Source: Reichenbachiella versicolor (GTDB taxonomy: Bacteria > Bacteroidota > Bacteroidia > Cytophagales > Cyclobacteriaceae). From it: a stretch of 64,000 nt of DNA. The stretch spans positions 62,001 to 126,000 of the forward strand of contig NZ_QFZQ01000003.1 of the NCBI RefSeq assembly GCF_003171675.1, given 5' to 3'. This document shows, one piece after another, positions 1-16,594 of this stretch. How positions within the stretch are numbered: position 1 is the stretch's first letter; every line of letters starts with the position of its first letter. The notes below the pieces were generated by a model. It had not been told where the DNA came from and searched no databases. It was given only the letters and a program-made list of their open reading frames with translations. A program made the position numbers and the translations under genes.

Positions 1-1161
1 TGGTGCAAACAGTTCTGACTGGACCGTAGGGTCACCATCTTTGACATTGGCTAATACAGTTGGGGCATACCAGTTGCCATTTTCGAACATAGCGCCATCT
101 GGACGTCCGCCTCCGAGTACTACTTCTGCTCCAGCGGTCACATTGTCGTCAACGAGTTTAGCGACTCTATCCAAACCAGCTGTACTTACATTAGGTCCCA
201 TATTGATGCTTTCATCCATTGGGTCTCCGACGGTAACTTGCTGTGCTCGTTTGATCAGTTTTTCAGTAAACTCATCAGCGATTTTTTCATGCACCATGAC
301 CATTTCATTGCAGATACATACTTGTCCACAGTTGGCATATCTGGATATGACAGCTGCTTCTACGGCTTTGTCGACATCAGCATCATCCAGTACAATGAAT
401 GGCGCTTTGCCACCTAGCTCTAGGATCATACCTGTGATGTTATTAGCGGCAGCTCGGTACATAGCTCGTCCGGCATTGGTACTACCTGTGAGACTGATCA
501 ATTTGGTAATAGGGCTTTCTACCAGTTTGGCAGCAGTCGCCACATCTTTGGTCGCTACCATATTGACTACGCCTTTTGGTAATCCAGCTTCGTCTACTAG
601 TCTACAAAACTCCGAGGCTGTAGTAGGAGTCAATTCGTGAGGTTTGATAATCACCGTATTTCCTGTAGCCAATCCGGGTCCTAGCTTTCGTCCAATAAGT
701 GCAAGGGGATAGTTGAATGCGCAAAGAGCAACCATCACGCCATAGGGTACTTTGTGAATTGCTAGGTGTTCATCTGCAAGGTCTGAAGGAAATATGGAGC
801 CTTGAATTCTTCTAGCCGCTTCTGCGGAATAGGTCATGTAGCGAATGGTGTCGTCTACTTCGAATCTTGCTTCTACCAGAGTCTTCCCTTGTTCTTGGAC
901 TAGCAGTTTGGCAAAGTGTTCTTTTTCGGCTTTTAACCGATCGGCAATAGCATAGATGTAATTGGCACGGGTCTGTGCTGGTAGTAGCTGCCATGTCAAC
1001 TGGGCTTTTTCAGAGGTCTCTAGAGCGTATTGTACATCATCGGCATTACATGCCGTCACAGTAGCATACATCTCATTGTTGGCTGGGTTTTCTACTTCGA
1101 TTTTTTCTCTGGTGTTGGAGTCTAACCATTCACCGTTGATATAACATGGGTAGTGTGTCAT
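1..1161 (-). CDS. NAD(P)-dependent aldehyde dehydrogenase (3' end beyond the window)
   Basis: The reading frame from the ATG at 1161 stays open to the window edge, giving about 387 N-terminal residues of a family usually near 480 residues. The ALDH landmarks are visible: the ELGGKAP segment carrying the general-base Glu, and the NCGQVC motif with the catalytic Cys. It oxidises an aldehyde to an acid with NAD(P)+, and it resembles the lactaldehyde/glycolaldehyde (AldA-like) branch. It is the last visible gene of the galactan cluster, 106 bp after the enoyl-CoA hydratase-like gene. Oxidation of 3,6-anhydrogalactose to anhydrogalactonate, or of lactaldehyde, are plausible jobs by context, but the substrate cannot be read from sequence. 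No signal peptide is seen, so it is cytoplasmic. Confidence 0.9.
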   Translation of the reverse strand, partial: MTHYPCYINGEWLDSNTREKIEVENPANNEMYATVTACNADDVQYALETSEKAQLTWQLLPAQTRANYIYAIADRLKAEKEHFAKLLVQEQGKTLVEARFEVDDTIRYMTYSAEAARRIQGSIFPSDLADEHLAIHKVPYGVMVALCAFNYPLALIGRKLGPGLATGNTVIIKPHELTPTTASEFCRLVDEAGLPKGVVNMVATKDVATAAKLVESPITKLISLTGSTNAGRAMYRAAANNITGMILELGGKAPFIVLDDADVDKAVEAAVISRYANCGQVCICNEMVMVHEKIADEFTEKLIKRAQQVTVGDPMDESINMGPNVSTAGLDRVAKLVDDNVTAGAEVVLGGGRPDGAMFENGNWYAPTVLANVKDGDPTVQSELFAP

Positions 1162-1162
1162 C

Positions 1163-1265
1163 TAGTTAATAGTCTGTAGTCAATAGTCCATATTTTATTG
1201 TAGAATCATGAACCAGACTGGTTATACATTATTGATCACGGTTGTCTGTTGACGGTAGACCGTGG
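1163..1265. repeat. Degenerate intergenic repeat (AGTCTGTAGTC / GGTAGACCGTGGAC type)
   Basis: The gap between the aldehyde dehydrogenase and enoyl-CoA hydratase genes contains near-repeats: TAGTCTGTAGTCAATAGTCC, and GTCTGTTGACGGTAGACC followed by GTGGAC. Such low-complexity GTC/GAC-rich spacers recur as non-coding debris in Bacteroidota genomes. No ORF or clear terminator is seen. Low certainty. Confidence 0.3.
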
Positions 1266-1267
1266 AC

Positions 1268-2041
1268 TTATTTAAAATTCGGTTTGCGTTTCTCTACAAA
1301 GGCTTGAAACCCTTCTTTAGCATCATAGGTGTCGTACAATGCATCGACGGATTTAGTCTCATACTCCAGCGATTCCTCGAGTGTCATTCCCTTGTGTCGC
1401 TGTATATATTGCTTAATGGCTGACATCGCTTCTCTAGCTCCAGCCGCTAATTCGCTTACATATTCTTTTACTTTACTTTCGAACTCTTCAACAGTATAAA
1501 GTTGGTTGAATAGCCCAAAGTCAAATGCCTGTTTGGCCGAGATGTTGCTGCCGGTAAGTAGCAGCTCCATCGCTCTACTGGCTCCTAGTAAATCTATCAT
1601 ACGAGGTGTACCTCCATTACCGGGCATCAAGCCAAGTTTGACTTCTGGTAGACCTACTAGATATTGACCGTCTGCTGCTAGTCGGATATCACAAGCCATA
1701 GCTAGTTCCAGTCCTCCTCCTAGGATATGTCCTTTGATGGCTGCGATGACTATCTTTTGACTATCTGATATTGCTGCAGTCACTTCTCTGGCTGCCACTA
1801 CCATTTCTCTATTTTCTTCTTGCGTATTGGATGCGAATATTTTGATATCCGCCCCTGCACAGAAGAACTTGTCTGAGGTACTTTCGATCAGAATCACTTT
1901 GATAGCTTCATCTGCATTGATTTCTCGAATGGTGGAGGAAATCAATTGCAGATATTCTTTGAAGTAGCTGTTTGCCGGACCTCTATTGAGGCTGATCGTG
2001 GCTATTGCTCCGGATTTATTTATTAATAATTCTTTTTCCAT
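1268..2041 (-). CDS. Enoyl-CoA hydratase/isomerase family protein
   Basis: Crotonase-fold protein of 257 residues, counted from the ATG at 2041. An upstream in-frame ATG at 2074 would add 11 unconserved residues and run into a palindromic repeat, so it was not chosen. Both oxyanion-hole segments are visible: FFCAGADI near residue 60 and GHILGGGLELAMACD near residue 105. The second carries the family's first acidic position, and LPEVKLGLMPGNGGT carries the second. The family hydrates, isomerises or cleaves CoA thioesters. It lies downstream of two CoA-transferases in the same direction, so it probably acts on the CoA ester they make. The substrate is unknown. Confidence 0.9.
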   Translation of the reverse strand: MEKELLINKSGAIATISLNRGPANSYFKEYLQLISSTIREINADEAIKVILIESTSDKFFCAGADIKIFASNTQEENREMVVAAREVTAAISDSQKIVIAAIKGHILGGGLELAMACDIRLAADGQYLVGLPEVKLGLMPGNGGTPRMIDLLGASRAMELLLTGSNISAKQAFDFGLFNQLYTVEEFESKVKEYVSELAAGAREAMSAIKQYIQRHKGMTLEESLEYETKSVDALYDTYDAKEGFQAFVEKRKPNFK

Positions 2042-2067
2042 CGTTTTTTCGTCATAAGCAGCGAAGC

Positions 2068-2100
2068 GTGGCAATCTGCTTTGTTATGGCAGATTGCCAC
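2068..2100. repeat. Palindromic repeat, GTGGCAATCTGC stem
   Basis: A perfect 12-bp inverted repeat (2068-2079 and 2089-2100) with a 9-nt loop, flanked by weaker outer arms, sits between the CoA-transferase and enoyl-CoA hydratase genes. It shares the GCAATCT/AGATTGC core with the element at 63232-63269 and, less perfectly, 18320-18410. It is best read as an interspersed REP-like element that forms an intercistronic hairpin. Confidence 0.75.
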
Positions 2101-2131
2101 CTCATTCTTCCTTGTGATGATTTCTTTTTTA

Positions 2132-3274
2132 TCACAAAAACTCCTTTTCTATCACGTCATTATGCTCACCAAGCTTCGGCGTACCAATAGCTGATGTCAA
2201 TAGTTCGTCATTGATTCTGATCGGACAGCGAGTAGTATCATACTTATATCCGTCAGACATATTTACTTCTTGAATCATGTCCAATACCTTGAAGGCTTCT
2301 TGATCTAGTAGTCTATCCCAGTTCATTACATCTGCACACCAGATGTCTGCAGGTTCTAAAATATCTAACCAATGCTGTGTGTGCTGAGTCTTTAGATGAC
2401 CGCTAAGAATGTCCTTGATTTCATCACGTTCGTCATACCAACTTTCGAATGATTCAAACCTTAATAATTCGTCACAACTCATCAATTCTCCTAAAACCGG
2501 AATACTTCCCATAGCAAGGGCCATATAGCCATCCTTGGTTGGGTAAATCCCATAAGGAGCTCCTAAATAGGGGTGGGCATTGCTGGTTTTAGTACGCTCT
2601 GTAGGTTCGCCACCATCCATGTGATAAGTAGTTACTGATTCAAACTGGAGCTCCATGATAGATTCTAGCATGCTTACTTCTATCAAACCTCCTTCTCCTG
2701 TATTACCTTTTCTGACAAGACAGGATAATATGCCTTGGGCTAGATGTATACCTGCGAGCATATCGACTATGGCGATTCCCATAGGTACTGGACCAGCACC
2801 ATTATTTCCGCTCAAGTATGTCAATCCAGAGATGGCTTGTACTACTAAGTCTTGTCCAGCTTTATCCTTCCAAGGGCCATCCTTGCCGTAGCCTGAGATT
2901 TCTCCGTACACTACGGCAGGGTTTAGCCTTGCTACTGTTTCGTAATCTATCCCTAGACGATCTACGACGCCTGGTCTAAAGTTGTGCATGACCACATCGG
3001 CCTTTTTGATGAGTTCATACACCTTACTGCGTTGAGCCTCGTCTTTGAGGTCTACTTGATAGCTTTGTTTGTTTCTATTGATCGCATGGAAAATCGAAGA
3101 CTCTCCATTCATCTCTACATGAGATATGTATAGCTCTCGACAAATATCTCCTGTATTGGGTTGTTCAATCTTAATGACACGTGCTCCTAAGTCTGCTAAC
3201 CTTAAGCTGGCCGATGGACCAGATAAAAACTGACTAAAGTCTAGTACTAAGATTCCTTCTAATGGCTTAGTCAT
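2132..3274 (-). CDS. CaiB/BaiF family (class III) CoA-transferase, paralogue B
   Basis: Class III CoA-transferases move CoA between carboxylic acids through an enzyme-bound anhydride. The 380-residue length is typical. The [22 protein letters not shown]-terminus and the [11 protein letters not shown] segment with the expected catalytic Asp (residue 142) are present, as is the C-terminal RCPIRIND segment. It starts one base after the stop of the other CoA-transferase, so the two are translationally coupled. The pair may form a heteromer or handle donor and acceptor steps. It is cytoplasmic, with no signal peptide. The acyl substrate cannot be told from sequence. It ends just before the palindromic repeat at 2068-2100. 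Confidence 0.92.
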
Positions 3275-3275
3275 A

Positions 3276-4430
3276 TCAATTCAGATTAAATTCTTTTTCT
3301 ATTGCTTCGTTATCTTCTCCAGTTTTTGGAGCTGATTTTCTGGAGAAAATTCTACTACCGTCTATTCTAATTGGGCAGCGAGTGGTTTTTACTTTGTCTC
3401 CATCGCTTGTTTCTACTTCTTGATCCATTTTGAGTACTTGATATCCTTCATGGTTCAAAATTTGATCATAGTTGTAGACCGGTCCACACCAGATTTGCTT
3501 TGTTTCCAACTTAGAGATCCATTCTTCAGTGGTTTTGGAAGTAAATGTTTCTTGCAGCCACTCCATGATGGCATCACGACTGCCAAACCAACTTTCTACC
3601 GATTGAAATGCTACTGGTAGACTAACTTCCATAGCATCTGCCAATTCGCTAAGGGGTTTCATGGCTATAGCTACATGACTATCTGCTGTTTCATATATGC
3701 CATATGGAGCTCCTAAGAAGGCTTGTGCATTCCCTTTTGCTGCTCGATTGCTCATCTTCTTGCCGTTATTGACATAGGCTGTCAATGATTCAAACTGCAT
3801 GTCCATGGTGCTTTCTAGCAAGCTTACTGATACCCTTGAGCCTTCACCTGTTTTTTGCTTTTTGATAAGTGCAGCTAAGATTCCTTGCACCAAGTGACCA
3901 CCGGTGAACATATCTGAGGCTGCTAGTCCCATTGGGGTAGGGTTGTCATCTTTGTTTCCTGTAAGGTAACAGATGCCTGATAGCGACTGAATCAAAAGGT
4001 CCTGTCCGGGTTTTTTTGCCCATGGACCTTTATCTCCATATCCTAGAACGTCTCCATATATGATCCCAGAGTTGATTTGCTTGACTGTTTCATAGTCTAG
4101 CCCTATTTTTTCCATCACACCGGGACGGAAGTTATGGGTCATGACATCAGCCTGTTTGATCATTTCTTTGATCTTAGCTAAGTCATTGGGGTCTTTCAAG
4201 TTCGCACTATAGGACCTTTTGTTTCGATTGATGGTATGAAATACTAAGCTATCTGGGCCTATAAATAGGTTTTTGATAGCTATTTTTCTACCAGCCTCTC
4301 CACTTCCAGGGCGTTCTATCTTGATGACATTAGCACCTAGATCGGCCATCTTGAGCCCTGCTGAGGGACCTGCCATGAACTGAGCAAATTCAAGGACGGT
4401 GATTCCTTCTAGTGGAAGCTTTTTACTCAT
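3276..4430 (-). CDS. CaiB/BaiF family (class III) CoA-transferase, paralogue A
   Basis: This 384-residue paralogue of the next gene keeps the [21 protein letters not shown] start, the [16 protein letters not shown] segment and the [11 protein letters not shown] motif with the candidate catalytic Asp at residue 144. Its ATG lies inside the end of the solute-binding-protein gene (8-bp overlap) and its stop is one base from the next start, so the three genes form one translational unit. Two full-length CoA-transferases side by side suggest a dedicated CoA-ester route for an acid made in this locus. That route is inference. Confidence 0.92.
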
Positions 4431-5565
4431 CGTCTAAAGATTTGATGTACAATTCGTTCAGTTTGTCAAGGACTGTTTTTGGATTACCACCATTCATCAT
4501 ATATTCTCTGATCGGTGCTCCAGAATTATCTTGAAAGAACATATGTCCATGATATCTTGGTCTCAAGAAAGACCTGTCTAGAGCAGGTAATGTATCCTTG
4601 AAGTAATCCTTGGTCATGAAGTTAGTGTATGTATCTGTCCATGCTTTTCTGTGCCCTGGCTGACCACCATTGTCAAAGAAAAGTGTGCGCTGAGTCAATG
4701 GATCTGCTGTGAACTCTACGTATTTAGCAGCTATTTCTGCATGCTTACATTCTGAGGAGATTGCTAATCCAGTACCTCCTAGCGTACTGATAAGACCTTG
4801 TCCATTTAGCTCTACCATGTCATGGAATTTTAAGAATTTGCGTGCATAGCCTTCTCTTGAGTAGTTAGTATAACCATAAGCGAACGGCGAATAGGCGTAT
4901 TTATCACCTAGGGTCATCGCTTCGTAGACTTTGATCGGGTTAAAATCATAGGATTCGCGGTCAATGTGCTGTCCCAAATCGCGCAATAGATCCAAACCTT
5001 TTAGTCCTGTCTCTTCTGAGATAAAGTGGTCTTTAGTAGAGGCAACTTCTTCACCTAGATTACAACATACCATGTAGAAGCTCATCAGTGTATCTTGTGG
5101 AATACCTGGGATCGCTACTTTTCCTTGTTTAGCAAGTTCCACTAACTCATCCCAATTTTTAGGAGGCTCTTCTAGCAAATCTGGTCTACTTGCTGCTACT
5201 GGAGTAGCTGCATCTATGGCTAGTGCCCACTGGTGATCATTGTATGAATAGCTTTCATGTGATCTGCCGACAGTATTTTCAGCTTGATCTTTAATGAACG
5301 CTTCAGGAAGGTATTTATCTAGAGGAAGTATCACTCCCGTTCTGGCAGCAAACCCTGCCCAAGGGTGATCGATGATCAATAAATCGTAACGTTTGGCTAG
5401 TTCGTTGATAGGTTCATCAGCGAAGGCTTGTAATGACCTTTTTTCCCAAGTTATTTCTATGTTGGGGTTTAGTTCATGAAACCTTTGAGCAGTAGCCACG
5501 GCAGAGGTGAAGCCTCTGCTATGATCCCATGTTATTCCTTTTAAATGTATATTCTCAGTACTCAT
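4423..5565 (-). CDS. ABC-type solute-binding protein family 1, without signal peptide
   Basis: The 380 residues fit the family 1 (sugar/oligosaccharide) solute-binding fold. The N-lobe begins GITWDHSRGFTSAV and FHELNPNIEITW, the middle has PPKNWDELVELAKQGKV, and the C-lobe ends with a hinge-type EFTADPLTQRTLFF segment. Such proteins normally carry a Sec or lipoprotein signal, but this one starts MSTENIHLKG with no hydrophobic stretch, so it should stay in the cytoplasm. No ABC permease or ATPase is nearby. It overlaps the first CoA-transferase by 8 bp and heads the block of two CoA-transferases, hydratase and dehydrogenase. It may have become a cytoplasmic ligand-binding or enzymatic subunit. 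Function unknown. Confidence 0.85.
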   Translation of the reverse strand: MSTENIHLKGITWDHSRGFTSAVATAQRFHELNPNIEITWEKRSLQAFADEPINELAKRYDLLIIDHPWAGFAARTGVILPLDKYLPEAFIKDQAENTVGRSHESYSYNDHQWALAIDAATPVAASRPDLLEEPPKNWDELVELAKQGKVAIPGIPQDTLMSFYMVCCNLGEEVASTKDHFISEETGLKGLDLLRDLGQHIDRESYDFNPIKVYEAMTLGDKYAYSPFAYGYTNYSREGYARKFLKFHDMVELNGQGLISTLGGTGLAISSECKHAEIAAKYVEFTADPLTQRTLFFDNGGQPGHRKAWTDTYTNFMTKDYFKDTLPALDRSFLRPRYHGHMFFQDNSGAPIREYMMNGGNPKTVLDKLNELYIKSLDDE

Positions 5566-5688: not shown

Positions 5689-8007
5689 TTATTTCTTAGC
5701 GTTTCTGATCTCTTCGTTCTCTTTGAGCTTGCGTTCCTTTTGCTCTTTATTCAGTCCGTACTTGAAGTACTCTTCTGGAGCTCTGAGGAAATTATGATGT
5801 TTGAAGTCTGGATAGTCGTGATCTAAACTCAAGTCACAATCAAAGCGATAGAGTTCAGAGTGCCATCTTTTGTTTTTGCCTTTGAAGTTGATGAAGTGAC
5901 CAATCCCCCATGTGAAACCACGACCATCTCCATTGTCAAGAAAGGCATCAGGTATATAGCCATTTGGACCTGTAGGCATCATCTCTGTGATCGCCATGAC
6001 TTTGAAGTTGACCCAGTCTTCTGCATATTGGATCGTGAAGTGTTCACTACCATCACGAATAGATAGTGCGGCGACACCAGTTTTCCATGGGAAGAAGCAG
6101 ATCTCGTGTCCTGAGTTTTGAACTGGATTAAGCGGATGCTTTTCAAATGGTCCTAACGGATCATCCGAAATGGCTAATCCAATACCACTCCATACTGTCT
6201 GAGGACGGTTGAAAGCTGCCTTGTAGTAGACATAAATTTTACCATCATGGACAAGTGGAGTAGGTGCCTGTATGGCAAATTGATCCCACTCACCTTTAGC
6301 TCCAGTTGGTATCACGACATCGTTGACGTGTGTCCATGGACCATCTGGGGAGTCCGAGTAAGCCACTCCTACAGGACAGTAATCTCCACGAACTCCACTT
6401 GGTTCTGTGAATGCTTGATAATAGATGTAGTATTTGTCTTTGAATTTCAGGATATCTGGTGTAGCCACTGCACGCCATCCTGGAGTTGGGTATTCAGGAC
6501 GGGTTACTGCGACGCCTTGCTCATCCCAGTGGAAACCATCTTCACTGGTTGCATACCATACTTCTGCTAAGTCCCAGTCAGTGGTAGGGATGGTGTCATT
6601 CCAAGTACCATCGGTATTCATGACGGTATAGTCTTCAGAGAATCTACCTACTGGTGGAATTGGTGTTTCTCTCTTGGTGTACCATACATAGTACTTTCCA
6701 TTTTCGAATAGCACTTTCGAAGGGTCACGACGTGTGACAGTAGCATCTCCATCGTTGTAGTCTAGGCCTGTTAGCTTAGTATATCTGAACTGGGTATATA
6801 GTTCGTTTTTAGCATTGACATAGGAAGGGTATTGGTTAAAGCTTCTGTCCAATGCTGAACTCAATTGATAGTCGGGTGAATACTCAGTTACCTGATATGG
6901 GAAAGCTTTTGTACCTGGCTTGGGAGTTTTTATTGGAATAATTAATGAATAAGAATCATCGCTTCCTTCAGGTAGTATGGCAATGATCAATGCTTTTGGA
7001 AGCCCTTCTTCCATATAGAACTTTGGCATGTCAGCGGTTCGCTTCGTTTTAGTTACAGTACCATCAGTCCATTTGATTTGACCTGCTTCTATGACTACGA
7101 AGTTTTTAGCTGGTTTCCAACCGAATCCCATATCGTCACCTTCAAACAGTAGGGTAGAACCTTTTGGGTGATCACCCCAGGCTCCTCTAGAGTCTTTGGC
7201 TAAGCAGTAGTAGTTTCCGTTGAAGATCCATTCGATGTGATCGTCTATCGCGAAAGATGCTGTCTCGTGCGTAATGAATGGAATCTCTGTATCTACAAAA
7301 GGTCCTTGTGGAAAACGAGAAACGGCTGTGACATGTACTACTTTCCCATGCTTGAATTTAGGGTTTGGCTCGACATACTTATAGGCCATTAAGTACTTGC
7401 CATCATTTCTACGAGTCACGGTAGGAGTAGAAGTCATCATTCTGTCTCCTGTCACATCGATCAATGGCTTATCGCTTCTAGTCCATTCTCCATTAAGATC
7501 GTCAGCTACCGCTAGGCCGATACGTTGATTATTTCGGTTTACCCACCACTCAGCATCTTTAGTCGATGGTTTGCGGTTTTTCTTGGTTTTATCCCAATAT
7601 CCGCTGCCTTTGTTGCCCATGTAGTACAGGTAGTATTTTCCTTTTTCGAAGATCACATGAGGATTGTGGGTACAATCTCCGTCCCAATATTGTTTGCCTC
7701 GGGCTGGTAGTACTACATTTTTAAATTCGTAGGGTCCTGTCAAGTTATCAGATACTGCATGTGCAATCTCTGAGTGTGTAACCCATCCTAGGTGCCCACG
7801 ACTTTTGGGCCAACGGGAATAGATAGCGTGGTATTTTCCGTCTTTGCCTTTGAGAATGTTTGTTCCCCAGACATTGTATTTTTTTTCTTGTATGATGTTC
7901 GCTTTGTCGAATTTCTCTGGGAGTAATTCCGCAAAGTTGAAGTCTGTCTGAGCAACGCCTATCAGGCTTGTCAGCAGTATCAGTGTTGTAAATAAGATGT
8001 GTTTCAT
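5689..8007 (-). CDS. Two-propeller fusion: GH43-like domain + GH117-like domain
   Basis: A 772-residue secreted protein with signal peptide 1-19 (cleavage after GVAQ). Residues about 20-365 match the stand-alone GH43-like protein at 19782-20921 (shared YSRWPKS, SEIAHAV, YYLYYMGNKG). Residues about 366-760 match the GH117 protein at 18420-19715 (shared RRDPSKV, WYATSEDGF, NSGHE). GH117 enzymes remove terminal 3,6-anhydrogalactose from red-algal oligosaccharides using an Asp base, a second Asp and an unusual His acid. Here the Asp of RRDPS (428) and the His of NSGHE (634) remain. However, the HDPxP motif of the paralogues reads QAPTP, putting Ala581 where the second Asp should be. The GH117 half may therefore be inactive or altered. 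Confidence 0.88.
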   Translation of the reverse strand: MKHILFTTLILLTSLIGVAQTDFNFAELLPEKFDKANIIQEKKYNVWGTNILKGKDGKYHAIYSRWPKSRGHLGWVTHSEIAHAVSDNLTGPYEFKNVVLPARGKQYWDGDCTHNPHVIFEKGKYYLYYMGNKGSGYWDKTKKNRKPSTKDAEWWVNRNNQRIGLAVADDLNGEWTRSDKPLIDVTGDRMMTSTPTVTRRNDGKYLMAYKYVEPNPKFKHGKVVHVTAVSRFPQGPFVDTEIPFITHETASFAIDDHIEWIFNGNYYCLAKDSRGAWGDHPKGSTLLFEGDDMGFGWKPAKNFVVIEAGQIKWTDGTVTKTKRTADMPKFYMEEGLPKALIIAILPEGSDDSYSLIIPIKTPKPGTKAFPYQVTEYSPDYQLSSALDRSFNQYPSYVNAKNELYTQFRYTKLTGLDYNDGDATVTRRDPSKVLFENGKYYVWYTKRETPIPPVGRFSEDYTVMNTDGTWNDTIPTTDWDLAEVWYATSEDGFHWDEQGVAVTRPEYPTPGWRAVATPDILKFKDKYYIYYQAFTEPSGVRGDYCPVGVAYSDSPDGPWTHVNDVVIPTGAKGEWDQFAIQAPTPLVHDGKIYVYYKAAFNRPQTVWSGIGLAISDDPLGPFEKHPLNPVQNSGHEICFFPWKTGVAALSIRDGSEHFTIQYAEDWVNFKVMAITEMMPTGPNGYIPDAFLDNGDGRGFTWGIGHFINFKGKNKRWHSELYRFDCDLSLDHDYPDFKHHNFLRAPEEYFKYGLNKEQKERKLKENEEIRNAKK

Positions 8008-9475: not shown

Positions 9476-10783
9476 TTATTTCGTTGCTTGTGTTTCTTGT
9501 TTTGCTGCTTCTATTCTTTTCTTTTTCAATCCTCCAAGTCCCTGCTTGAAGAATACTTCTGGTCTATGCCATACCCCTGTGCTTTTCATTCTTGGCTCGT
9601 GAACATCTAAGCTTAAATCACAATCTACACGGGCAATGATCGAATGCTTTTTATCTCTTGATGTAGCTGCGTTGATGAAGTGACATACACCCCAAGTTAC
9701 CCCTCTTCCATATTCGGTTCCTGTGAAGGCATCAGGTGTGTAGAATCCAGTGGCTGTAGGAGTAAGCTCTACAGTTGCAGCGATATTGAAATTGACGCCG
9801 TCTGCGGCATATTGCATAGTTTGTGCTTCGTTACCATCCTTGATCGCTAGTGCTGCGATGCCTTCTTTAAATGGGAAGTAGGTCGTCTCATGTCCTGAGT
9901 TCAGTACCGGATTTAGCGGGTGTTTTTCAAATGGACCAAATGGATCTTCTGCGATGGCCAATCCATGGGCTACCGCATACTTATCACGTTTTTCTGGCCA
10001 TTTGTTGTAGGCAGCTTTGTAGTATAGGTAGATTTTCCCATTGTATATGATCGGGTGTGGATCTTGAGTTTGGTCTTGATCCCATTCTCCCTTTTTGCCG
10101 AACGGTACTACAGGTTTACCAACATGTGTCCAAGGGCCATTTGGTGAATCGGCGTAAGCCATAGAAATTGGACACCAGTCTCCACGCGTACCGCTTGGTT
10201 CGTTGAAGGCTTGGAAGTACAGGTAGTATTTGCCTTTCCAGATTAGAATATCAGGAGTAGCTATTGATCTCCATCCTAATGCTGGTTTCTCAGGTCTAGC
10301 TACTGCTACCCCTTGTTCTTCCCAAGTGAAGCCGTCTTCACTGGTAGCATACCATAAGTCACACAAATCCCAGTCGGTAGATGGAATTTCGTCAGTTGCT
10401 TCATTTGCTCTATTCCAGCCAATTGGAGGAACCTTAGTATGGCGTTTTGTGTACCAAATGTAGTATTTTCCATCAATCAATACTGGTCTTGAAGGGTCAC
10501 GTCGGGTGATAGTTCCATCGCCTCCATTATAATCGAAGCCTTCTAATTTGGTATACTTAAACTGCGAGAAAAGCTCATTGTCTTGTACACGCGGGGCTGG
10601 GTAATCAAACATTCTTTCCGCTGCTGCACTCATAGGAAAGTTTGGCTTCGATTCAGGTAGTTTATGTGGAAATACCTGATTGGTGACTTCTGCTGGAGTC
10701 TCTACTTCTTGTTTTGGACTGCATGACCATATCATGGCGATGGTCAATAGAGGAATAATTAGTTTACTAGTCATCATTTGCAC
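9476..10783 (-). CDS. GH117 family glycosidase (anhydrogalactosidase type), lipoprotein
   Basis: Tandem paralogue of the next gene and the same length (435 residues). The lipobox ends at Cys21 (IAMIWSC) if translation begins MQMMTSK; the second or third Met would also leave a functional signal. The catalytic residues expected for GH117 are present: Asp96 (TRRDPS), Asp241 (TQDPHP) and His298 (NSGHET). It follows a sulfatase by 4 bp and precedes the second GH117 by 2 bp, so the three are one transcript. Two close copies suggest dosage or slightly different substrate tailoring, for example desulfated versus methylated ends. That is inference. Confidence 0.9.
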   Translation of the reverse strand: MQMMTSKLIIPLLTIAMIWSCSPKQEVETPAEVTNQVFPHKLPESKPNFPMSAAAERMFDYPAPRVQDNELFSQFKYTKLEGFDYNGGDGTITRRDPSRPVLIDGKYYIWYTKRHTKVPPIGWNRANEATDEIPSTDWDLCDLWYATSEDGFTWEEQGVAVARPEKPALGWRSIATPDILIWKGKYYLYFQAFNEPSGTRGDWCPISMAYADSPNGPWTHVGKPVVPFGKKGEWDQDQTQDPHPIIYNGKIYLYYKAAYNKWPEKRDKYAVAHGLAIAEDPFGPFEKHPLNPVLNSGHETTYFPFKEGIAALAIKDGNEAQTMQYAADGVNFNIAATVELTPTATGFYTPDAFTGTEYGRGVTWGVCHFINAATSRDKKHSIIARVDCDLSLDVHEPRMKSTGVWHRPEVFFKQGLGGLKKKRIEAAKQETQATK

Positions 10784-12698: not shown

Positions 12699-14537
12699 TC
12701 ATAGTTTCAGTTTATAGTCATGCGCTCCTGGAGCGAAATTGCTGCGATAGACAGTGGTACCATCAGCTTTTTTACCCCAGCCTACTTCGACTCTATCGTC
12801 ACCTAATACAATATCCATGAGCTTCTTTTTCATCTTCATGGCGATCTCTTCGTAGTTTTTGTCGAATGCTAAATTTTTAGTCTCTTTTGGATCTTTGGTC
12901 ATATCGTATAAGGCAGGGTCAAGTTCCTTGTATGAGGCGTTTAGTGCCCATTCCATATTTTCGCCTCTTTTCTTATGAGGACGCGTTTGCATAGAGAAGA
13001 CATATTCTTTGGTTCTTATATAAGCTCTTGGGCCAGTTACTGCATGACTTTCTCCTATGATGTAGTCGCGCTTTTGGGCTTTGCCCGATGCTATTTGCGC
13101 CATGTCCATTCCGTCCAGATATTCATATTGTTTATCCTTCAGGTTGGCTCCTCCGGCTGCCATGAAAGTTGGTGCTATGTCTATAAATTCAGTATAGTCT
13201 TGCACTACCTTTCCAGCTGGAAAAGTTTTCTTATCAGATGATACAACTACAATAGGGTTATGGCTATCGATCTCCCATGAAGAAAATTTAGATATAGCGC
13301 CGTGATCATTGAGCTTCCATCCATGGTCGCCACATACAAACATGATGATCCAGTCTTGATTGTTCTTTTCACTGTACTCGATAAAAGCTTTGGCTGCTTG
13401 ACCTACGAGTTCGTCGCCATAGGCGCAAAATGCGTAGTAGTCCTGAATCATTTTTTGCTTTTCTTCATCTGTGAAATGGTCTGACATGCTCTTAATGGCG
13501 ATTTTTTTCAGTTGTGAAGGCATATTTTCCAATTCCTTTTTATTGAATTCTGGAACTTTATATTTCTTCTTAGCAAACCTTTCTCGGTAGCTAGCAGGGG
13601 GTAATACTGGAGTGTGTGGATAGTCAAAACCTATATTACAGAATAGAGGCTTTGAAGTATCTACTCCTTCAAACACCCTTGATCCAGCTGCAAATTTTTT
13701 GTTCTCGTTTTTTAGGTAGTCTTCGAAAATGGATGCGTAGTGGCCATCACGCGTTTTACCGGCAGGTTGAGAACTAACTCCTGATAGGATTATCCCATCA
13801 ATATTATTATTGGGTTTTTGGGGAGTGTAATGACGTAGAAGGTCATATTTCTTCATAGTCTTTTTGGCAGTTCCTTTGTGTTTAGAGTTATTTACTTCGA
13901 GTTCTTTATGGACATATTCGAATTCACCCTCTGGGGTCACAAAGAACTTGACTTGTTTCATTGGCTTTTCTAGTTTCTCACCGTCCATTTCATAAAACCA
14001 ATCTTTACCCCAATCTGTCAATCCGTCTCGACGTAATTGTTTAAAACTGATATTGGTCTGATACATCTCAAATGGTACAGATTTGCCCTGATTATTGATA
14101 GTTTTAATTCTCACACCTTGTTTGCCAATGATGATTGTCTGGTATCCGAGATCTGCCATTTGCTCGGGCAAAGTAGGTTTGCAGTGCTCTGCATTGTTAT
14201 TATAGTACTCGAATTCGTAAACCCCTGATCTGAAAGGGTACCTTCCTAGATGCATCGCAGATCTGGATGGCGCACATCCAGTTGCCTGACAGTAAGTGTT
14301 GATGTAGGTTGTTCCTTGACTTACTAGATTATCTACATTTGGAGATTCAACATAACCTAGTTCACTCATTTCTTGTCCAGTAAGGATCTTATTAAATGAA
14401 CGAACAGCATCATATCGCTCATCATCTGTCAACATCCATAGAATGTTAGGCTGTTGTTTTTGGGCGATAGTGCTTTTACTAGCTAAAAGTATGGTTAATA
14501 CTGCTAGAATTAGTCTGACCAATTTCATACTCTTCAT
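12699..14537 (-). CDS. Type I sulfatase (formylglycine-dependent, S1 family)
   Basis: A 612-residue secreted sulfatase with the maturation motif CAPSR at Cys88, metal ligands in MLTDDERYD near residue 36, and a second metal segment, [14 protein letters not shown]. It differs strongly from the other two sulfatases of the locus (longer insertions, ending [14 protein letters not shown]), so it probably attacks a different sulfate position. Its ATG overlaps the stop of the upstream GH16 gene by one base (TAATG), coupling translation of endo-hydrolase and sulfatase. The signal peptide covers about residues 1-25; an alternative Met is at position 4. Confidence 0.92.
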
Positions 14538-15481
14538 TATTTAGTTTTTAACGGGTGATAGTGAAACCAATCCACTTCGAATGTGGAATTTGTTATTTGT
14601 TCTTCTTGTATTGGTGTTTTTCCTTGTGGCAAGAAAAGGTTTCCTAAATACCAATACAGTGGCTTTCTAGCTTTGTTCGGAACAGTTCGTAGTGATGGCG
14701 CAACATCATTTTCTGAGAAGTTGATACGGTGTCCGACTTTTACCCATTCTTCACTGTCAAGGTACCACATTTGTAAGTACTCAGGGTGGTATTCCATTCC
14801 CCAAGTTTGCCACTGGTCAAAGCCTGATCTTCCGATTATTTCGCCTTTGTATTTATCCTTTTTTCCATCGATCATGATGGCCTTTTTCCAACCGAATGAA
14901 GGTCCTGGTTTTATATTGACCTTTACTTTCTTATTTAAAGAATCTACCCACAGGTAGCACGGTGCATCTGAACTCCAGTCAGTTTTTACTTTTGACCAAG
15001 TCGAGAATTCCATGATGTCGATCTCCATCCAGTTGCTATTCTCACCAGTTGTTCCGGGTACATTGTTTCTTCTAGTGTCGTTGAGAGATCCCCATACTGA
15101 GGGGTGCCAAGCGTTTCGGGCGTCTGGAACGATACCGGTAGTCTTCCAATTAAATGCGTAAAACCCGTATTGGAAATAATTATTTGAGACGATAGCTCCA
15201 GCTTTACGCTTGTTCTTGTGACCATAGCAAATCAGTTTACCGTCTTTTTCTTGGACATACTCTTTGCCTTGCCCTAGACCTGTTTTGGTAGATTCTCTAT
15301 AGTGCCATTTCTTCGTATCGAAGGAATTGTTTTTTCGTTTTCCGTTGAATTCATCAGAGTATTTACTATCCGGCTTCGATGCATAGATGTTCTTGAGTTC
15401 TGGTGGAAATAGCCCTTGTGCTTCTACTTGTGTAGCAAGTAGAAGAGGGAGGATGAGTAGGAGTATTATGCTTTGATTCAT
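14537..15481 (-). CDS. GH16 family endo-galactanase (carrageenase/agarase/porphyranase type)
   Basis: Translation is taken from the ATG at 15481, which gives a clean signal peptide ([12 protein letters not shown] to VEAQ). A longer frame to 15556 would only add repeat-derived residues. The mature protein is a GH16 jelly-roll of normal size (314 residues in total). The active-site signature reads EIDIME with nucleophile Glu153, Asp155 and acid/base Glu158, followed by a beta-bulge-type FSTW. It has the WHPSVWG segment also found in its neighbour. GH16 enzymes of red-algal galactan loci cut internal beta-1,4 linkages. Which galactan is cut cannot be assigned. It shares a stop/start overlap with the following sulfatase gene. 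Confidence 0.9.
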
Positions 15482-15483
15482 GT

Positions 15484-15555
15484 CTATGTTTCTTTTAAAT
15501 CTTATTAACCCCCTCTGACTAAAGGGGGAATTCTTTCGAAAAGAAGTGAGGAGCA
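15484..15555. repeat. Intergenic palindromic CCCCCT...AGGGGG repeat
   Basis: The spacer between the two GH16 genes contains CCCCCTCTGACTAAAGGGGG, a short hairpin of the type also seen near 8043 and 25712-25745. It is followed by an A/G-rich stretch. It is non-coding, although in-frame read-through would extend the downstream GH16 N-terminus artificially. Confidence 0.45.
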
Positions 15556-15565
15556 TTAACTGAAA

Positions 15566-16594
15566 TTATTTTGTTGGGATCAACTTCGATTCGTCTTTCA
15601 AAATTTGCTTACTTCCTGTTGGTTGATCATTTTCCCATGCCCAATCCATATCAACAGCCTCGATGTGTCTGTAGTATCTAAAGAAGTCAATGTCAAAGGA
15701 CATGTCTTCACTTGTTCGTTGGTTTTTACCTTCTTGAATCTGGCGATATATATAGCGAGCTACTATGTTGCCAAGAATCCAGAATACAGGTGTTCTTGAC
15801 TTTTTACCGATGGAGGATTGGGTGTATTTGCTTTCTGGAACTTTGTTATTGTCTTCTACAAAATTCACTACTCTGTCTCCATATTCTTTCCACTGACCAT
15901 CTTCCCATAGCCATAGTTTAAGATGTTCAGGAGAATATTCTAAACCGATTGTCTGCCATCTATCGTCCGTAATATCCGCGTGGTCTTTCATTTCGGCTTT
16001 TTCATGTTTGGCAGGAATGATGTTTCTACGTTTGCCCTTACTATCTAGCATGCGTGCATTGGTATGGCTGCCCCATCCATTAGATCCGTTTTTCCATTCC
16101 ATGAAGTCTAATTCCAACCAAAAATCAGGAGGGCATGAGGTACGATTTTTACCTTCAACATTGTCTAGTCTTGCTCCCCATATTGATGGATGCCAGACGG
16201 TTCTTTTTTTCTTGACTTCTGGAGTATCGACTCCTCGATATCTGAACCTAGTTACATAAAAACCATAATAGCCTGTAGCAGCAGACACGATTCCTGCTGT
16301 TCTGTATTCGTCGTCTTTTCTTTCTGCTTTAATCGAGACATATTGAACCCTGCCTTCTTTTTCCATTTGTACCAATGACTTGTCATTGATGTAGGGAGTA
16401 GTGGTCTCATTACCAGTATTTCTTCGTGCCCATTTTTTATTATCAAGCTTCTTGGAGTTGAACTCATCAGAAATACTCGCATCTCGGTAATTGACATAAT
16501 TTTCTTTTGTTCCAGATGGAAGTTGAGAAACTGTTTGTGCCTGTGTGACTATTGGAAGTAGAACTAGTGCTACTGCTTTATATAAGTTTTTCAT
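15566..16594 (-). CDS. GH16 family endo-galactanase, second copy
   Basis: A 342-residue secreted GH16 protein with signal peptide 1-20 (IVTQAQ). The active site is ELDFME: Glu161, Asp163 and Glu166 are all present. It shares the WHPSIWG and FWILGN-like segments with the neighbouring GH16 but is otherwise quite different, with a longer C-terminal region (RYIYRQIQEGKNQ). The two enzymes are more likely complementary than redundant, for example cutting differently sulfated stretches of one polymer. It lies 9 bp after the beta-helix gene, in the same transcript. Confidence 0.9.
   Translation of the reverse strand: MKNLYKAVALVLLPIVTQAQTVSQLPSGTKENYVNYRDASISDEFNSKKLDNKKWARRNTGNETTTPYINDKSLVQMEKEGRVQYVSIKAERKDDEYRTAGIVSAATGYYGFYVTRFRYRGVDTPEVKKKRTVWHPSIWGARLDNVEGKNRTSCPPDFWLELDFMEWKNGSNGWGSHTNARMLDSKGKRRNIIPAKHEKAEMKDHADITDDRWQTIGLEYSPEHLKLWLWEDGQWKEYGDRVVNFVEDNNKVPESKYTQSSIGKKSRTPVFWILGNIVARYIYRQIQEGKNQRTSEDMSFDIDFFRYYRHIEAVDMDWAWENDQPTGSKQILKDESKLIPTK

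Follow-up and report, generated by a model that had tools for sequence, protein, structure and literature searches.

A signal-less solute-binding-fold protein conserved beside family III CoA-transferases, with a possible part in CoA-dependent breakdown of sugar acids

We analysed a stretch of 64,000 nucleotides from Reichenbachiella versicolor (contig NZ_QFZQ01000003.1; G000:C16:62001-126000 in our numbering), hereafter the window, which begins with one operon-like block of five genes on the reverse strand. The first gene of the block (4423..5565) encodes a family 1 solute-binding-fold protein without a signal peptide (SBP; 380 aa; Pfam SBP_bac_8/SBP_bac_1). Next come two paralogous family III CoA-transferases (CTs; CoA_transf_3), CT1 (3276..4430; 384 aa; candidate nucleophile Asp173) and CT2 (2132..3274; 380 aa; candidate nucleophile Asp171), then a crotonase / enoyl-CoA hydratase with both Glu motifs present (ECH; 1268..2074; ECH_1) and an aldehyde dehydrogenase (ALDH; 1..1161; Aldedh). 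ALDH is truncated by the window edge, 387 of its 481 aa lying inside, and its complete sequence was recovered from the continuation of the contig (L004). All five proteins exceed the curated Pfam cut-offs. The end of SBP and the start of CT1 share 8 bp, a gap of 1 bp lies between CT1 and CT2, and ECH and ALDH are separated by 106 bp; the start of ECH is ambiguous, being either the listed TTG at 2074 (57 bp after CT2) or perhaps an ATG at 2041 (90 bp after CT2; 257 aa). An initial annotation, made from the sequence alone, had given the same gene places, overlap and CT1-CT2 spacing, and all are confirmed from the open reading frames (ORFs). The whole host genome carries no PF02515 genes other than CT1 and CT2.

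The stop-to-stop frame of SBP spans 390 codons against an ORF of 380 aa, which leaves about 10 codons upstream and therefore no room for a signal peptide. We measured 45 SBP loci, which include the window's own and two duplicate pairs but not L026, where the frame is broken and the motif used as a landmark is missing. The upstream stop lies at most 26 codons from this motif (TWxH) in 35 of them, and in 44 no start codon lies further than 23 codons ahead of the motif. In the remaining locus, L074, a start codon occurs 61 codons before the motif, and the intervening stretch is not hydrophobic (1.18 on the Kyte-Doolittle scale over 12 residues). In four Flavobacterium loci (L021, L022, L023 and L025) the frame ahead of the ATG includes a hydrophobic segment, but this segment has no start codon. 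Across the measured loci the N-terminal hydrophobicity (over 12 residues, counting from 12 residues before the motif) reaches at most 1.48, compared with 1.63-2.50 in seven annotated ABC-type binding proteins from neighbouring operons, a margin that is narrow at its low end (1.48 vs 1.63). By every sequence test applied, SBP is thus very probably cytosolic. As far as sequence can show, a mis-called start is ruled out by the frame length, the positions of start codons and the hydrophobicity; the initial annotation had described SBP as lacking a signal peptide while allowing for a misannotated start, and no such peptide was detected in the 45 measured homologue loci. Two SBP frames are interrupted by stops or a frame break, one on a Rhizobium plasmid (L038:8001-9128) and one in a metagenome-assembled contig (L026:1433-2613).

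Relatives of the block were mapped in other genomes. SBP, CT1 and CT2 occur in the same order in all 18 Bacteroidota contig loci (with a broken SBP frame in L026), and the complete five-gene order is found in nine of these. In a sample of 395 Bacteroidota genomes searched with a profile of 17 SBPs, 19 genomes carry SBP, all at E 6.4e-152 or better, and the next match is at 2.3e-10; given this gap, the SBP family is sharply bounded in the sample. Two PF02515 genes are present in all 19 SBP genomes but in only 5 of the 376 others (P = 3.7e-28, Fisher's exact test, kinship ignored), and at least one PF02515 gene is present in 68 of those 376. A second sample of 299 genomes, which represents one family and overlaps the first in part, shows a CT in 21 of 22 SBP genomes versus 12 of 277 others at an SBP threshold of E 1e-20; the E-values of SBP grade more evenly here, down to 2.4e-82. 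G713, counted among the 22, has only partial matches to SBP and CT, lying close together (G713:C5:231203-233786; L113), and this pair may be decaying jointly. None of seven genomes of the same genus as the host has SBP, so the block is accessory in the genus.

Finer mapping covered 44 loci, 39 from Bacteroidota and 5 from Alphaproteobacteria; L070 and L089 (which duplicate the contigs of L017 and L030) and L028 and L036-L039 (SBP outside the ORF cluster) are left out. A CT of the main cluster is found in 42 of the 44, and L035 has one that falls outside this cluster; ECH or MaoC occurs in 38, Gfo in 26, a lactonase in 20, FucP in 16, RhaT in 12 and an IclR regulator of one cluster in 16. In a separate count the SBP/CT overlap is exactly 4 bp in 18 of 44 loci, and a CT lies within 400 bp of SBP in 44 of 46 loci.

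SBP relatives are also found outside Bacteroidota. A tblastn search returned 145 plasmid records with a relative, and a strongly divergent query gave 145 as well. We opened 19 of these loci, hand-picked for variety rather than at random; three are from Bacteroidota (L030, L031 and L101), and two (L028 and L032) are both from S. meliloti. A CT on the same strand adjoins SBP in 18 of the 19, from Alpha- and Betaproteobacteria, Streptomyces and Bacteroidota; in Jannaschia some 4.5 kb separate the two genes, and the CT is on the opposite strand. Streptomyces, Azospirillum, Pararhizobium and Variovorax share the order CT-SBP-ECH-FAH, and in S. meliloti the CT-SBP pair stands alone among unrelated genes on a plasmid. 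Phage records gave no match at E 1e-5. The arrangement is almost certainly a conserved module, and a one-off is ruled out by its recurrence in Bacteroidota contigs and in plasmid loci of other phyla. The initial annotation had proposed gene-neighbourhood conservation as a check and had reckoned with a block found nowhere else; the block is kept, and the view that genes of such families are not usually grouped proved wrong for SBP, CT and ECH/MaoC, a combination seen repeatedly in three phyla.

Alphaproteobacterial loci are typically enlarged by an amidohydrolase of fuconolactonase-like type, an IclR gene, a gene resembling L-rhamnose mutarotase, Gfo/Idh/MocA, MaoC and MR/MLE, and they also contain an ABC importer of their own with a separate SBP, which bears a signal in L033, L034, L036 and L037 and has no leader at the annotated start in L029. 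In Bacteroidota, a tblastn search with five probes (E 1e-4) detected no ABC permease or ATPase in the window, in L003 or in 41 further loci (two duplicates included), in agreement with the earlier remark that none lies nearby, and an ABC import role is ruled out on these 43 sequences. The Pfam assignment (SBP_bac_8/1) and the MalE-like fold are what would be expected if SBP were a normal binding protein of an ABC system whose start had been mis-called and whose linkage to CT were accidental. Such an account is nevertheless extremely improbable: it is opposed by the missing room for a signal peptide upstream of SBP, by the failure to detect one in its relatives, by the missing ABC genes, by the separate signal-bearing SBP beside the ABC importer of several Proteobacteria, and by an SBP-CT linkage maintained across phyla.

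Several locus types can be distinguished in Bacteroidota by what surrounds the core. Type A is that of the window (SBP-CT1-CT2-ECH-ALDH); type B reads SBP-CT1-CT2-SBP2-Gfo-MaoC-FucP, with divergent SDR, FAH, MDR and lactonase genes; type C reads SBP-CT-CT-lactonase-RhaT-Gfo-MaoC; and type E (L104-L107) reads SBP-ECH-CT with SDR nearby, to which L106 adds genes for a 7-bladed lactonase and for UxuA-like and RraA-like proteins. The mapped loci place the module in the company of lactonases and sugar dehydrogenases, of FucP or RhaT, or of genes for rhamnose. The neighbouring FucP scores above the TIGR00885 cut-off, and the fuconolactonase-like and didehydro-deoxyrhamnonate hydrolase-like enzymes score below theirs. 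SBP2 is a second, different protein of the solute-binding fold and is signal-less in all 21 rows, which represent 20 distinct loci. It adjoins CT2, mostly followed by Gfo/Idh/MocA, in 20 distinct loci (e.g. L030:11454-12686 and L016:13557-14789), and a relative of it is found in Croceibacterium (L095:2429-3616).

CT1 and CT2 match PF02515 with 318.8 and 328.2 bits (cut-off 23.3) and cover profile positions 1-366. The candidate catalytic Asp of family III, which the initial annotation had noted as present in both CTs, is Asp173 in CT1 and Asp171 in CT2, and the position is D in all 86 rows of the CT cluster (40/40 CT1, 40/40 CT2 and 6/6 other). In a tree of 86 CTs, the 38 CT1 rows group together in a single clade and 33 of 38 CT2 rows in a second, the inner order of the two clades being similar by eye; the remaining five CT2 rows, all of type C, and the single CTs of Proteobacteria are not firmly placed. 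Two CT genes occur in 38 of the 44 mapped loci. The simplest reading of these sequence relationships is that an old duplication has been maintained as a pair. Both crotonase Glu motifs are present in 15 of 15 ECH rows, and a 'GDFFPHH'-like motif of the GD(F/Y) type is present in 25 of 28 MaoC rows, both motifs presumably having their usual meaning in these families.

An AlphaFold2 model of SBP built from an alignment of 16 sequences (pLDDT 83.1, pTM 0.80) finds its best Foldseek matches in the PDB among the sugar-binding proteins 6dtq, 7ape and 8hpn (TM about 0.8). Pfam, the predicted structure and Foldseek together confirm the type II binding-protein fold, so that the family 1 sugar-binding signature seen earlier is borne out, and the MalE-like fold is retained as judged from the model. 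SBP therefore shares its fold with ABC family 1 sugar-binding proteins such as MalE and LpqY, but differs from them in lacking a signal peptide and a nearby importer, and the identity is 14-19% among the Foldseek matches listed. In an alignment of 67 different sequences (L026 excluded; L038 kept, with its two stops as X), 17 columns are invariant and 27 further columns are conserved at 95% or more; many of the invariant columns are predicted to lie at strand ends lining the cleft of this fold. Such conservation resembles that of an enzyme, and at several loci (L010, L011 and L013 among them) SBP surpasses CT1, CT2 and ECH in conservation. MqnA and MqnD are enzymes of this broad fold. SBP might accordingly itself be an enzyme of sugar-acid metabolism (a lactone isomerase, epimerase or lyase), with the CTs doing another step, and it stays with SDR and a lactonase-like gene (judged by eye to resemble the L106 lactonase, which was tested with Pfam) in L102 and L108, where CT and ECH were not found. 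We consider this unlikely, if still a serious candidate, for a plain binding cleft would equally explain the invariant residues, the 50 Foldseek matches listed are ABC binding proteins or what we presume to be MBP fusions, with no enzyme among them, and an independent enzyme would leave the conserved overlap with the CT gene unexplained.

The linkage of SBP to CT probably reflects a functional connection. We tentatively regard the block as a variant of a widespread module that breaks down sugar acids in the cytosol by way of CoA, a reading that we hold to be a real possibility. Because the core shared by these loci consists of CT, SBP and an acyl-CoA hydratase in a sugar setting, the simplest chemistry would be CoA charging of a sugar acid followed by beta elimination. 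A sugar would be taken up by a sugar/H+ symporter, or in Proteobacteria by a separate importer of ABC or TRAP type; its oxidation would yield an aldonic acid or one like it, onto which the CT pair would transfer CoA. The crotonase (ECH here, MaoC elsewhere) would then remove the alpha proton and eliminate at the beta position to give a product of the 2-keto-3-deoxy type, and the CoA of the product would be handed to the next acid molecule in the manner of CaiB/CaiD. A CoA-activated elimination on a sugar acid is quite conceivable. Within the cytosol, the signal-less SBP would capture the sugar acid, a hydrophilic compound, and present it to the CT or confer specificity on it; this role as a presenting subunit is somewhat doubtful. 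Slightly more doubtful is the combined proposal that a solute-binding fold has become a cytosolic subunit handing sugar acids to a CoA-transferase within a new class of CoA-dependent sugar-acid dehydratase. The initial annotation had suggested a cytoplasmic route through a CoA ester of a sugar acid, possibly derived from anhydrogalactose; the cytosolic SBP and the neighbouring genes fit the first part, and anhydrogalactose as the source fares poorly (see below).

Parts of this scheme resemble known systems. In carnitine dehydration by CaiB/CaiD, a family III CT and a crotonase are likewise encoded together and CoA is recycled from product to substrate; the carnitine CoA-transferase model, by contrast, gives only 81 bits here against a cut-off of 413, and the window block has two CTs, an SBP and sugar genes. 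The heteromeric benzylsuccinate CoA-transferase 9fn0 (BbsEF type) also consists of two paralogous CTs, and both CT1 and CT2 match it, but more weakly than they match formyl-CoA or succinyl-CoA transferases; to our knowledge no SBP belongs to the benzylsuccinate system. With the non-phosphorylative L-fucose/L-rhamnose pathway many loci have FucP, lactonase-like, FAH-like and SDR genes in common, to which they add CT, SBP, MaoC and often Gfo/Idh/MocA and the second signal-less SBP.

Several observations weigh against the CoA-dependent scheme. Among the 26 SBP places of the second sample (13 loci fetched, three more covered by L070, L071 and L080, the others judged by coordinates), five lack a CT in the surrounding 9 kb or so: G690, G639:C34, G721:C1:3085060, G492:C3 and G497, the last with a CT about 18 kb off. 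G690 lacks any PF02515 gene in a genome that is 95% complete, and in G378 SBP (L084:9385-10545) sits inside an L-rhamnose isomerase/aldolase operon with the CTs about 60 kb away. That SBP never occurs without a nearby CT is therefore ruled out (L084, L102, L103, L108, L109 and L111), and its retention without a neighbouring CT favours a function concerned with the sugar or its acid more than with CoA. No SBP-CT fusion was found among the family frames of the 395-genome sample, the longest being 443 aa. Moreover, an ordinary candidate dehydratase coexists with the module in several loci (MR/MLE in Alphaproteobacteria, UxuA-like in L106), and UxaA-type dehydratases are present in 14 of 14 genomes tested. 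With these dehydratase genes alongside, the CoA route need not replace the dehydratase step, and the idea that it does so everywhere was not upheld. A point in favour of the scheme is that, in 7 of 11 FucP-type genomes, the best match to the enolase-superfamily family PF13378 is no better than 2.7e-31; these seven carry other genes of the fucose-type oxidative route, and four of them also have a single ILVD_EDD gene. Against it, these seven genomes do contain PF13378 matches (E about 1e-25 to 1e-31) that in part exceed the Pfam cut-off; by their size we tentatively take them to be MenC, dipeptide epimerase and enolase.

The few loci that retain SBP without CT would also suit a cytosolic sensor or buffer that binds the sugar or its acid and controls the CT or a neighbouring IclR regulator. 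IclR is divergent from SBP in L084 and in Ponticoccus, and regulators of one IclR cluster accompany the module in the 16 mapped loci counted above. Since the same cluster is missing from the other 28, and nearly every mapped SBP has a close CT neighbour, a sensor is a distinctly unlikely explanation.

What acid the proposed CoA-dependent route would act on can be approached from the surroundings of the block. The window contains a polysaccharide utilization locus (PUL) with GH43/GH117-type enzymes, GH2 and sulfatases. A two-part enzyme of GH43 type, perhaps GH117-like, is encoded on the same strand 123 bp upstream of SBP (5689..8007), outside the conserved core, and a GH117-type enzyme whose relatives include 4u6b, 4u6d and 4ak5 lies at 9476..10783, also on the reverse strand. 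It is conceivable that type A acts on 3,6-anhydrogalactonate, with ALDH making the acid, the CTs charging it and ECH opening the ring by beta elimination. In accordance with this, ALDH is close to 6j75, which a table in PMC10163077 gives as the reference for 3,6-anhydro-alpha-L-galactose dehydrogenase; the PUL holds a GH117-type gene, and several hosts are named agarivorans or Zobellia. The anhydrogalactose pathway of Zobellia and Vibrio similarly combines an ALDH-family sugar oxidation with a red-algal PUL, but in the accessible part of PMC5698469 it proceeds through a cycloisomerase with no CoA step. A strong match to 3,6-anhydro-L-galactonate cycloisomerase does occur in the host genome outside the block (L091; 639 bits, E 1.7e-191), and the block thus probably serves another acid. 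The closest solved structures to ALDH include 3k2w beside 6j75, ALDH also resembles lactaldehyde dehydrogenases, and Flavobacterium contigs with FucP loci share the SBP-CT core. An anhydrogalactonate substrate is therefore improbable, and the link to anhydrogalactose drawn by the initial annotation is weakened, many relatives being found in L-fucose/L-rhamnose-type loci (FucP in 16/44, RhaT in 12/44).

We know of no pathway map that contains a CoA-dependent sugar-acid dehydratase of this class. A published description of the SBP-CT pairing, or of aldonyl-CoA names, was not found among the literature matches listed, in which most subscription journals are not covered; within this scope nothing contradicts the earlier remark that no described system of this composition was known. 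The accessible part of PMC9007349 contains nothing on the SBP-CT pair, and PMC8407117, considered as a source for the pair in S. meliloti, concerns a glutaconate CoA-transferase instead, as far as its accessible part goes. In the public records opened, the SBP gene is labelled 'extracellular solute-binding protein' or ABC transporter binding protein, a label that predicts transport where it is unlikely. If the scheme is true, the solute-binding fold works inside the cell in connection with an enzyme, and Bacteroidota, Proteobacteria and Streptomyces would regularly catabolise sugars through sugar-acyl-CoA thioesters, a branch of L-sugar and algal-sugar breakdown that has not been recorded so far. 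It would be directly testable in Sinorhizobium meliloti, where the CT-SBP pair is simple and plasmid-borne.

The PUL shows some further features. At least five GH43-type genes lie between 5689 and 20921 of the window, of which the one tested is GH117-like and close to 4u6b/4u6d. Two adjacent ORFs of 339-342 aa (14537-16594), situated between sulfatase and GH genes, have no Pfam match above cut-off, and a DDE transposase gene (L003:10377-11648) lies on the left side of the PUL, with GH2 and sulfatase genes close by.

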